This document shows, in pieces, positions 28,990 through 32,148 of a stretch of 64,000 nucleotides of DNA (positions within the stretch are counted from its first letter, which is position 1; each line of letters begins with the position of its first letter). Source of the DNA: Gemmatimonadota bacterium (GTDB lineage Bacteria; Gemmatimonadota; Gemmatimonadetes; Gemmatimonadales; GWC2-71-9); contig VGVQ01000020.1 of the NCBI GenBank assembly GCA_016874005.1, positions 1-64,000 on the forward strand, read 5' to 3'. A program made the position numbers and the translations under genes. Below the pieces are notes generated by a model. It searched no databases and was not told the DNA's origin. It was given only the letters and a program-made list of their open reading frames with translations.

Positions 28990-30135
28990 TTAGTCGGTCG
29001 TGGCGGCTGCCGCAGCGATCGCCGGCTGAACCAGGGTCTGCGCGTACCGCGGCCAGCGAGCTTCGAGGACGTACTCCGCGACCGCCTCGGCCGCGGCCAG
29101 GGCGGACGGAATCGAACCACCGTGACCGGCCGTGACGACCAGCTGGCCGAGCAGCCCGACCACCGGGCGGCCCCCTGGGCCGGTCCGAACCGTGGATACC
29201 CCCGTGGAGAACCACAGGCCGTCCGCGACCCGCCCGATGAGCCGAGCGGCCTGGCGACATTCCACGGCGACCCGATCCGGTAGCGAACCGATTGCACCCA
29301 CCGGCGTCCGCCACACGGCGGTCCAGCCCTGGCTCGCCGGCACCAGCTCGAGCCAGTCGCCGGCCGTACCGCGGCAGCGCAGTGCGGGCGTGTCGCCGAC
29401 GGCGGCCGTGGCGGACAGGGTTGCCGACACCCGAGCCCAACCTTCCAGAGGAAGGCCGGCTCCATGCGCGAGGATCAGAGCACCAGCGGACATCGAGCGC
29501 CCGCCACCGAGGCGAAGGCGCTGGAAGCCGCCGAACTCATCGAGCCCCACAGGCTCTGCCTCGTCCCGGGTGACACCCTCCGCCGCCAGCACGCCATCGA
29601 GCCAGCGACCGAACCGATCGCCATCGACCGCTCCCGCCCGCCGGACGTGCAATCCCCCAGCCGCTTGGAGCTCGAGCTTTCCAAAGGCGGCCCGAAGCGC
29701 CGACCCGCCCTCGATCAGATCGAGCCCGCCGGGGCTGCCCGCAAGCCCGGTCGGCGGGCTGGGCAAATACCACTCGTGCGAGGTGTGCTCTCGGAGCGGG
29801 CCGACCCCGAGCGGCGTGGCCCGCCCCGCAGCCGCGCGGAGAAACTCGAGATCGGGCGGGTCGCCCGCAAGCCACAACTCGCCCCGCCGGTCCATGTCGA
29901 ACCCGGCGTGGCTCTCCTCCCAAAGGGCCTCGAGAAGGTCGATCCCCCGACTCAAGAAGGGTGTCAACGCGGGCTCTTGGCCCGGCCACCAGGCCCGGTA
30001 CCAAGATTCCGGCGCCTCGTCCGTCCGAGATGGTCCCACCAACACCACCGGCAGGCCTCTGCGCGCCAAGGCCAGTGCCGCGAGACGGCCACCGAGCGAG
30101 GTCCCGGCCACGACTGCCTCGCCCAGGCGTTTCAT
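28990..30135 (-). CDS. FAD-dependent oxidoreductase (DAO-like)
   Basis: This 381-residue flavoprotein has an N-terminal Rossmann FAD-binding motif in slightly unusual form (EAVVAGTSLGGRLAALALARRG, residues about 6-27). Its C-terminal FAD-contact region is VVGLLGQLVVTAGHGGSIPSALAAAEAVAEYVL, as in D-amino-acid oxidase or glycine oxidase relatives. The middle substrate domain is not recognisable enough to name a substrate. A strong ribosome site (AGGAGG) precedes the ATG. It diverges from the manganese riboswitch operon across 249 bases. No catalytic partner is encoded with it, so it appears to be a single-gene unit. Confidence 0.72.
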   Translation of the reverse strand: MKRLGEAVVAGTSLGGRLAALALARRGLPVVLVGPSRTDEAPESWYRAWWPGQEPALTPFLSRGIDLLEALWEESHAGFDMDRRGELWLAGDPPDLEFLRAAAGRATPLGVGPLREHTSHEWYLPSPPTGLAGSPGGLDLIEGGSALRAAFGKLELQAAGGLHVRRAGAVDGDRFGRWLDGVLAAEGVTRDEAEPVGLDEFGGFQRLRLGGGRSMSAGALILAHGAGLPLEGWARVSATLSATAAVGDTPALRCRGTAGDWLELVPASQGWTAVWRTPVGAIGSLPDRVAVECRQAARLIGRVADGLWFSTGVSTVRTGPGGRPVVGLLGQLVVTAGHGGSIPSALAAAEAVAEYVLEARWPRYAQTLVQPAIAAAAATTD

Positions 30136-30159: not shown

Positions 30160-30189
30160 TTGCCCGCCCCCAGATAAGCCGACTAAATT
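30160..30189 (+). promoter_or_regulatory. Promoter of the manganese riboswitch - htpX - alx operon
   Basis: TTGCCC (30160-30165) and TAAATT (30184-30189) are 18 bases apart. A transcript starting 6-8 bases after the -10 box would begin at about 30196, just before the first paired strand of the riboswitch aptamer. Confidence 0.55.
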
Positions 30190-30199
30190 GATCCCCTTA

Positions 30200-30316
30200 G
30201 AAGGGGAGTAGCAAATCCGGCCATTTGCCGGACGGTGCCATCGTCAACACTGTCGTGGCCAATCGGCTCGGCACGGTGGCTCCGGGCGGAGGAGACTCCG
30301 CTACAGCGAGACCTTC
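30200..30316 (+). promoter_or_regulatory. yybP-ykoY manganese riboswitch aptamer
   Basis: The leader carries the conserved blocks of the yybP-ykoY Mn2+ riboswitch in order: AAGGGGAGTAGC (30201-30212), CGTCAACA (30242-30249), GGCTCCG near 30278-30284 and GCGAGACCTT (30306-30315). The outer helix P1 can form between GAAGG (30200-30204) and CCTTC (30312-30316). These blocks match the published consensus as I know it. In Escherichia coli the same motif controls alx, a TerC-family gene, and a TerC/Alx homologue is the second gene here. The 3' end overlaps the 5' arm of the terminator at 30305-30358, so aptamer folding and termination exclude each other, making an ON switch with Mn2+. Confidence 0.85.
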
Positions 30317-30358
30317 GTCACCTGCCCTGTGGGCGATATGACGAGGTCTCGCTTTTTT
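30305..30358 (+). terminator. Rho-independent terminator of the manganese riboswitch
   Basis: AGCGAGACCTTCGTCA (30305-30320) pairs with TGACGAGGTCTCGCT (30339-30353) with a single bulged base and is followed by six T (30353-30358). The left arm contains the aptamer's GCGAGACC and the P1 3' strand. The hairpin lies 27 bases before the htpX ATG. Confidence 0.85.
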
Positions 30359-30384
30359 CTTGCACAGCAAGGAGACGCGCAACG

Positions 30385-31215
30385 ATGCTGCACACCAAGA
30401 CATTCATGCTGATGGCCGGCCTGATGGCCTTGTTCCTCGGGCTCGGAAACTTGCTCGGTGGGGAGCAGGGGCTGGTCATGGCCCTCGTGATGGGCTCGGC
30501 AATGAACGCGATCATGTATTTCTTCTCGGACAAACTGGTCCTCCGGATGTATGGGGCGCAGGTGGTGTCCAAGGAGGAAGCACCGGAGCTGTACCGGATG
30601 GTCGACCGGCTGCGGCAACGGGCCGGGCTGCCGATGCCGGTGGTCGCGGTGACCAATCAAGACCAGCCCAACGCATTCGCCACTGGCAGGAGCCCGTCCA
30701 AGGCCGTGGTCGCGGTGACCACGGGCCTCCTTCGGGCTCTTCCGGCGGAGGAGATCGAAGGCGTCATCGCCCACGAGCTCGCCCACATCAAGAACCGCGA
30801 TATGTTGATTTCGACGATCGCGGCGGGGATCGCCGGCGCGATCGGCTACCTGCCCTACCTGCTGATGTTCGGGCAGCGCAACGATGACGAGGGTGGGGCC
30901 CACCCAGCGGCGGCCCTCGGGTTAGCCCTGATCGGTCCGATCGTGGCGATGATCCTCCAGTTCGCGGTATCCCGCCAACGGGAGTTCGAGGCCGACCGGG
31001 TTGGTGCCGAGATCCTCGGCCGATCGGTCCCGCTGGCCAGCGCCCTGCGCCGGCTCGATGCACTGGCCCACCAAATCCCGATGCACATCCCGCCCGCGGC
31101 CGCCCCGTTGGCCCAGGTCAATCCGCTGTCCGCCATGGGCGGGGGCATGATGAAAATGTTTTCGACCCATCCGCCCACCGAGGAGCGAGTCGCGAAACTG
31201 TTGGCGATGCGATAA
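30385..31215 (+). CDS. htpX: M48-family membrane zinc metalloprotease HtpX
   Basis: HtpX degrades misfolded membrane proteins at the inner membrane. The 276-residue product has two N-terminal membrane helices (residues about 6-50), the zinc motif GVIAHELAHIKNRD (about 125-138), two more hydrophobic segments, and the third zinc ligand in REFEADRVGAEIL (about 205-217). The ATG at 30385 has an AGGAGA ribosome site and follows the riboswitch terminator by 27 bases; the frame upstream of it is only leader RNA. The alx gene follows 9 bases later. Control of htpX by a manganese riboswitch is unusual and suggests that this protease serves metal stress here. Confidence 0.92.
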   Translation: MLHTKTFMLMAGLMALFLGLGNLLGGEQGLVMALVMGSAMNAIMYFFSDKLVLRMYGAQVVSKEEAPELYRMVDRLRQRAGLPMPVVAVTNQDQPNAFATGRSPSKAVVAVTTGLLRALPAEEIEGVIAHELAHIKNRDMLISTIAAGIAGAIGYLPYLLMFGQRNDDEGGAHPAAALGLALIGPIVAMILQFAVSRQREFEADRVGAEILGRSVPLASALRRLDALAHQIPMHIPPAAAPLAQVNPLSAMGGGMMKMFSTHPPTEERVAKLLAMR

Positions 31216-31224
31216 CGTTGACGC

Positions 31225-32148
31225 GTGGCCTCGCCTCAAACCGGCTGGATCGTTTTTGGAGCGCTCGCGGCGCTCCTCTTGGCGGCAGATCTCTTCATCC
31301 TGAATCGACGGGCCCACGTCCTGTCGATTCGGGAGGCAACTCGCTGGAGCGCCGTGGTGATCACCACGGCGCTCTCGTTTGGGGTCCTGGTCTGGTGGCT
31401 CTACGGCTCGACCCGGGGACTCGAGTACTTCGCCGGTTACCTGGTCGAGCTCTCGCTGTCGGTCGACAACCTCTTCGTCTTCATCCTGATCTTCCAGTAC
31501 TTCGCGGTCCCGGCCGAGGCCCATTCCAAGGTGCTCAACTGGGGTATCTTCGGGGCCGCGATCATGCGGGGTATCATGGTGGTCGCCGGCACCGTGGTGC
31601 TGGGCCGATTCGAGTGGCTTTTCGTCGTTCTCGGGGTCGTCCTCCTCCTGACGGCGGCCAAGATGTTCCGGGCCGAGGAGGAGCGGATCGAACCGGAGAA
31701 GAACCCCCTGGTCAAGTTGGTCCGCCGGTTGATCCCGATGTCGGGGGCTTACGAGGACACCAAGTTCTTCGTCCGGACTCACCGGGGTTGGCTCGCCACG
31801 CCGCTGCTGCTAGTGGTGATCGTGGTGGAGTGGACCGACCTGGTATTCGCCATCGACAGCATCCCGGCGGTCTTCGCGATCAGCCGTGATCCGTTCATCG
31901 TCTACACCTCGAACATCTTCGCGATTCTCGGGCTGCGAGCTCTCTTCTTCGTCTTGGCCGACGCGCTCGATAAGTTTGCCTACCTCAAGAAGGGTGTTGG
32001 GATCATCTTGGGCTTCGTCGGCGTCAAAATGATCTTTAGCCAGTGGTATCATCTCCCGATTCTCCTGTCCCTCGGGATCATCTTGGCGGTACTGATCGGG
32101 TCGGTCGCGTTGTCGATCGCCAAGACCCGGCGGGAGGCGGCGGCGTGA
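31225..32148 (+). CDS. alx: TerC/Alx-family membrane protein (manganese export candidate)
   Basis: This 307-residue protein has about nine membrane helices and the TerC-family signatures ELSLSVDNLFVFILIFQYF (about residues 75-93) and VVIVVEWTDLVFAIDSIPAVFAI (about 195-217), each with the intramembrane Asp thought to bind metal. Alx homologues lower cytoplasmic Mn2+ and are classic targets of the yybP-ykoY riboswitch, which lies upstream of this operon. GTG start, 9 bases after htpX. Its TGA overlaps the GTG of the M20 peptidase gene (GTGA). Naming it Alx rests on family, length and riboswitch context. Confidence 0.88.
   Translation: MASPQTGWIVFGALAALLLAADLFILNRRAHVLSIREATRWSAVVITTALSFGVLVWWLYGSTRGLEYFAGYLVELSLSVDNLFVFILIFQYFAVPAEAHSKVLNWGIFGAAIMRGIMVVAGTVVLGRFEWLFVVLGVVLLLTAAKMFRAEEERIEPEKNPLVKLVRRLIPMSGAYEDTKFFVRTHRGWLATPLLLVVIVVEWTDLVFAIDSIPAVFAISRDPFIVYTSNIFAILGLRALFFVLADALDKFAYLKKGVGIILGFVGVKMIFSQWYHLPILLSLGIILAVLIGSVALSIAKTRREAAA

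Follow-up and report, generated by a model that had tools for sequence, protein, structure and literature searches.

A manganese-type riboswitch leader before htpX and alx in a Gemmatimonadota genome and its recurrence before htpX in other phyla

Manganese riboswitches have been described as a defence against Mn that acts by way of exporters, and alx is the classic target of the yybP-ykoY class. In E. coli and B. subtilis, HtpX is known to be controlled by regulators of the heat and envelope-stress responses. Mn stabilises helix P1.1 of the L. lactis switch and keeps the terminator from forming (PMC11087558). In B. subtilis, meeY is under a Mn riboswitch, both HtpX and FtsH were found to co-purify with MeeF, a TerC protein, and FtsH is essential once MeeF and MeeY are absent (PMC10550928). 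For Deinococcus, the genes listed as changed in a mur mutant under Mn include htpX (PMC4171365). The RNA class of the leader described here is already known; what appears to be new, judging from the literature searched, is a recurrent type of target, htpX.

The locus lies in a stretch of 64,000 nucleotides of Gemmatimonadota DNA, here called the window, on which an earlier note had been made from the letters alone. That note had recognized the yybP-ykoY blocks at 30200-30316 and, following them, a terminator whose left arm overlaps the last strand of the aptamer, an htpX gene shortly after the terminator, a TerC/Alx homologue and a gene for an M20 peptidase. The corresponding features, in window coordinates, were assigned as follows.

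30160..30189, + strand: putative promoter, TTGCCC (30160-30165), 18-base spacer, TAAATT (30184-30189)
30200..30316, + strand: predicted yybP-ykoY-type aptamer, from the RNAalifold consensus, covariation on 16 relatives and a match to model R1 of 98.7 bits
30200-30204/30312-30316, + strand: aptamer helix P1.1, RNAalifold consensus
30211-30212/30306-30307, + strand: aptamer helix P1, RNAalifold consensus
30216-30220/30228-30232, + strand: aptamer helix P2, RNAalifold consensus
30233-30244/30273-30284, + strand: aptamer helix P3, RNAalifold consensus
30252-30257/30267-30272, + strand: aptamer helix P4, RNAalifold consensus
about 30285-30303, + strand: aptamer hairpin P5, RNAalifold consensus
30203..30212, + strand: L1 loop block GGGGAGTAGC, one side of the presumed metal site
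30241..30252, + strand: L3 loop block TCGTCAACACTG, other side of the presumed metal site
30305..30358, + strand: intrinsic terminator, its stem 30305-30320/30339-30353 interrupted by a single bulged base and followed by TTTTTT ending at 30358
30369-30374, + strand: ribosome site of htpX, AAGGAG, from the sequence
30385..31215, + strand: htpX, M48 membrane metalloprotease, PF01435 126 bits, active site HELAH
31225..32148, + strand: alx, Mn exporter or metalation protein of the TerC/Alx family, TIGR03718 and PF03741
32145..33161, + strand: M20 peptidase/deacylase, PF01546

By reading the sequence, each block was found where it had been placed, namely AGAAGGGGAGTAGC at 30199-30212, ATCGTCAACACTG at 30240-30252 and GCGAGACCTTC at 30306-30316, with GAAGG at 30200-30204 and the CGTCAA of the second loop at 30242-30247. 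The overlap between terminator and aptamer was likewise borne out by sequence and fold.

The putative promoter ends about 10 bases 5' of the aptamer and is a weak match to the consensus (8/12). In relatives, TTGAC and a -10-like box, judged by eye, stand at the same place just 5' of the aptamer, so that the start of the transcript is probably the start of the aptamer. Neither the promoter nor the terminator of the leader appeared in the list of a promoter/terminator scanner, because the promoter scores too low for it and the terminator loop exceeds the length that it accepts. The same intergenic region is shared with a divergent gene for an FAD-dependent oxidoreductase (window 28990-30135, - strand), relatives of which also lie upstream of the leader within the same genus.

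Folding of the 186-base leader gave -95.7 kcal/mol versus a shuffle mean of -64.2 (z -6.9). Sixteen homologous leaders from the window's family, picked up by nucleotide search, were aligned and used to build covariance model R1; no known Mn riboswitch entered the model. From these 16 leaders, RNAalifold returned unaided the yybP-ykoY layout of P1.1, P1, P2, P3 and P4 (helix names after PMC11087558). Paired cells amounted to 96.7%, 11 of the 30 pairs had changed on both sides, and doubly changed cells numbered 44, whereas shuffles gave 12.8 and slid structures no more than 13. Structure and covariation support a multi-helix junction with two conserved loops, which are predicted to face each other. 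The GGAGUAG and UCGUCA blocks are invariant among the 16 relatives. The L1 block is (nearly) invariant and E. coli mntP carries identical letters, while in the L3 block TCGTCA and ACTG are invariant. We take these loops to be the metal site, a role transferred from established knowledge of the riboswitch class.

The covariance model RF00080, named in the earlier note as a check, found no match in the window, neither at the gathering score nor with E relaxed to 10, and none in the whole source genome at E≤1; taken literally, this check fails. The same model gave no gathering-score match for the known E. coli alx riboswitch (L031:1873-2000), passed its own cut-off in only 2 of 14 control genomes and found almost nothing in the window's family, yet it did match the leader of one relative (L010, 28 bits, E 5e-4). 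The miss is therefore ascribed to weakness of the model and not to absence of a riboswitch. In place of RF00080, covariance models R1 and R2, built from homologous leaders, were used. R1 found two E. coli leaders at full length and in the right place, that of mntP with 34.2 bits (E 2.4e-7) and that of alx with 24.8 bits (E 9.3e-5). On this reciprocal test, and not on RF00080, class membership is based; we regard it as nearly certain, from sequence comparison, that the leader belongs to the yybP-ykoY (Mn2+) riboswitch class. In high-GC phyla, many Mn riboswitches escape RF00080, and annotation by Rfam cut-off will under-count the class. Rfam matches to mir-1976 and mir-2058 in the leader (E 3 and 9) were discarded as chance.

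The left arm of the terminator (30305-30320) includes the 3' strand of P1 and the whole 3' strand of P1.1 (30312-30316), so the closing helices of the aptamer and the terminator are mutually exclusive, the same strand-sharing design as in the L. lactis switch (PMC11087558). In all 57 homologous leaders examined, the P1/P1.1 3' strand can be taken up into a downstream hairpin that competes with the aptamer helix. At least four T occur in the eight bases after the hairpin in 30 of 39 htpX-linked leaders; the other 9 have fewer than four, and the mode may therefore differ there. The leader is very probably an ON switch that works by antitermination. Manganese as the ligand, the direction of switching, co-transcription and the task of HtpX are what we infer in the following scheme. 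At low Mn, the 3' strand of P1.1 (30312-30316) would be taken into the terminator at 30305-30358 and transcription would end before htpX. At high Mn, a metal ion bound between the GGAGUAGC and CGUCAA loops would dock the aptamer, P1.1 would be stabilised and the terminator blocked, and read-through would allow htpX, alx and the overlapping M20 gene to be expressed together. Alx would then export Mn or pass it to exported proteins, and HtpX would remove membrane proteins that are mis-metalated or stuck in export at high Mn. As an account of the whole, it is likely that Mn acts through the leader at 30196-30358 to turn on both Mn export and the upkeep of membrane proteins.

The ATG of htpX stands at 30385, 26 bases past the T-run, and the M48 domain and HELAH motif of the product agree with the HtpX recognized earlier. 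HtpX models were its best NCBIfam matches (331 bits, under the equivalog cut-off of 369); membrane segments were judged by eye. Following a gap of 9 bases, alx starts; its product scored 380 bits with TIGR03718 (R_switched_Alx), far above the curated cut-off of 246.4, so that the TerC/Alx assignment stands. The M20 gene overlaps alx by 4 bases and is likely an operon member in the window. Its place as third gene was confirmed here, but its adjacency is kept in only some genomes: it adjoins alx in G090, G092 and G093, is near alx in G069 and is not beside alx in several others. The M20 gene as a core member of the riboswitch unit was rejected as unsupported for that reason.

Using R1, the element was found in 30 of 102 genomes of the window's family. 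First genes were called from hit coordinates, HtpX and Alx searches and fetched loci; contig edges and the weakest hits were left out, and model matches of about 18-28 bits (G026, G066, G126, G352, G374, G408) were not counted as riboswitches. All counts are subject to the draft state of the genomes and to possible misses of divergent members by the models. The first gene after the 27 readable family riboswitches was htpX in 24 cases, alx in 2 and a SNF symporter gene in 1, and htpX followed by alx was seen in 20 family genomes. The order riboswitch-htpX-alx, proposed earlier as something to look for in relatives, is thus conserved. Where htpX and alx stand together with readable upstream DNA, the riboswitch was present in 20 of 20 cases; where alx (G092, G089, G054, G064, G069, G083, G094, G095, G096) or this type of htpX (G056, G075, G097) stands apart, an intact riboswitch was seen in 1 of 12. 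A plain hypergeometric calculation, which ignores shared descent, gives about 1e-7 for this difference. The single exception is G064, in which htpX was lost and the riboswitch still precedes alx. In loci L074, L073 and L076 (G089, G092 and G054), alx was kept, htpX is gone at the locus and the aptamer has decayed; the terminator or remnants of its arms persist before alx, the aptamer core being gone.

In total, R1 matched 73 of 395 Gemmatimonadota genomes. Outside the family, 54 leaders were readable, with htpX as first gene in 22, alx in 20 and a SPFH/Band-7 lipoprotein gene in 7; the remainder were single or few Usp, OmpH-like and unknown genes. The commonest first gene among readable Gemmatimonadota leaders is htpX (46/81). 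The cultured strain Roseisolibacter sp. H3M3-2 (L141) is among the bacteria that have the riboswitch before htpX. At L137:1649-2918, two Mn-type riboswitches follow each other, the one preceding alx and the other htpX. R1 and R2 were also run on 80 HtpX loci from many phyla, and a riboswitch directly precedes htpX in 5 Gemmatimonadota, 4 Nitrospirota and 1 Peptococcaceae locus. R2 matched 35 of 246 genomes of the Nitrospirota phylum; of the 30 loci fetched, 13 have htpX as the next gene. Three Mn riboswitches occur in the Peptococcaceae genome: one stands before htpX, the others before a TerC-like gene and a Na/Ca-exchanger-like gene. Outside the window's family the riboswitch often stands with htpX alone, and many HtpX genes, some within Gemmatimonadota, are without riboswitch. 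In a tree of 130 HtpX proteins, 60 of them with riboswitch, the label is spread over separate groups of Gemmatimonadota, Nitrospirota and Bacillota and needs at least 13 changes, 5 of which are forced by starred branches; labels were covariance-model matches, several of which were missed by a regular-expression label. Gain or loss of the coupling has therefore happened repeatedly, the counts on the tree being compatible with either. A Mn-type riboswitch before htpX, as claimed earlier, was upheld, but its restriction to "this lineage" proved too narrow, since other Gemmatimonadota families, Nitrospirota and one Peptococcaceae genome have it too.

Several other genes were seen behind leaders of this type. 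In seven Gemmatimonadaceae loci (L113, L118, L121, L123, L124, L126, L227), a Mn-type riboswitch precedes the SPFH/Band-7 lipoprotein gene (PF01145, 99 bits), which in some Gemmatimonadaceae holds the position of htpX and which reads as a second membrane-upkeep type of target. The leaders of this gene keep the competing hairpin without a T-run and may therefore use another mode. A riboswitch-like leader (L132:1223-1337, 38.9 bits) stands before a gene for an OmpH/Skp-like periplasmic chaperone (PF03938), and two more (L119 and L122, 39 and 35 bits) stand before a secreted protein of about 250 residues with no Pfam match. In Nitrospirota, Mn-type riboswitches precede non-htpX genes in L242, L243, L245, L250, L252, L253, L255, L260, L263, L265 and L267; by reading, these include P-type cation ATPases, small CPxCG-motif proteins, which adjoin ATPase or TerC genes, carbonic-anhydrase-like genes and others. 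At L246:1507 onward, also in Nitrospirota, the riboswitch is followed by an htpX-like start with a stop after about 10 codons (ATGAACACTTTAAAAACAATGATATTAACCTAA), a possible htpX remnant.

The presence of the riboswitch before htpX in several phyla suggests that bacteria link Mn overload to membrane-protein upkeep. On the simplest reading, an excess of Mn puts membrane and exported proteins at risk, and the response of the cell is a TerC protein together with a membrane protease. That HtpX acts in membrane or translocon upkeep under high Mn has, in our estimate, about an even chance of being right. We are similarly evenly divided on the broader proposal that the Mn riboswitch regulon across several phyla includes membrane-protein quality control beside Mn exporters, through HtpX most often, also through the SPFH/Band-7 protein of Gemmatimonadaceae and possibly through the OmpH/Skp-like chaperone. 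If this is true, excess Mn would serve as a signal of membrane-protein stress, with HtpX as a permanent partner of TerC proteins at the translocon.

Under the same riboswitch, HtpX might instead destroy Mn importers (Nramp/MntH) at high Mn, export being turned on and uptake off together. In its favour, a membrane protease is placed behind a switch class that activates genes at high Mn, and pairing export with importer removal would be economical. Against this, several riboswitch-htpX genomes (e.g. G042, G045 and G063, each at least 93% complete) gave no Nramp match, and a single distant Nramp-like match (60.6 bits) was all that the source genome gave. The Nramp-less genomes weaken the proposal as far as Nramp/MntH, the importer family searched for, is concerned, and we consider the proposal as a whole unlikely. 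HtpX could also itself be a Mn-using or Mn-sensitive enzyme, the supply of which must follow Mn, as might befit an M48 metalloenzyme whose gene alone follows the riboswitch in many genomes. M48 proteases are, however, regarded as zinc enzymes, and the SPFH protein, for which no catalytic metal site is expected, takes the same position in some Gemmatimonadaceae, which favours membrane upkeep over metal demand; this explanation, too, seems improbable. It is very unlikely that the leader is a related RNA for Ca2+ or another metal rather than a Mn sensor: RF00080 scores are low and the yybP-ykoY element of streptococcal mgtA binds Ca2+ too, according to a review (PMC9495176), but the two loops presumed to form the metal site hardly vary and agree with those of the E. 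coli mntP and alx switches, and the downstream genes include a Mn exporter family. The idea that htpX is a passenger of a riboswitch serving alx only, which would fit the standing of alx as target and the riboswitch retained with alx in G064, is largely refuted by the stand-alone riboswitch-htpX units in many other Gemmatimonadota, in Nitrospirota and in the Peptococcaceae genome and by the second riboswitch of L137, which serves htpX alone, and it also fits poorly with the aptamers decayed in G089, G092 and G054, making it an extremely slim prospect.

With upkeep of membrane proteins as the preferred role of HtpX, the locus can be set against the known systems. It resembles the yybP-ykoY switches (RF00080; E. 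coli mntP and alx; L. lactis) in helices P1.1, P1, P2, P3 and P4, in the GGGGAGUAGC and CGUCAA loops, in the closing strand GCGAGACC, in an outer helix whose 3' strand is common to an intrinsic terminator and in having alx among its targets; it differs in that the window leader scores under the RF00080 thresholds and in that the first gene is htpX. No report of htpX as a Mn-riboswitch target was found in the literature searched, and an earlier mention in the gene-context tables of a 2015 Mol. Cell paper is possible. The window HtpX is like that of E. coli and B. subtilis in its M48 domain, HExxH motif and membrane segments, whereas a metal-type riboswitch, which has no place in the known control of the latter, precedes its gene. 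As for MeeF/MeeY (TerC) with FtsH and HtpX at the Sec translocon of B. subtilis, a TerC-family protein is in both cases tied to HtpX and membrane quality control (PMC10550928). A membrane protease as recurrent direct target is an independent genomic counterpart to that TerC-translocon-protease report (PMC10550928), and it makes testable both the effect of Mn excess on membrane proteins and the part of HtpX as partner of TerC there. The tie in B. subtilis is physical and genetic, htpX not being reported as riboswitch-controlled (PMC10550928), whereas the tie described here would be regulatory, through shared or separate riboswitches.
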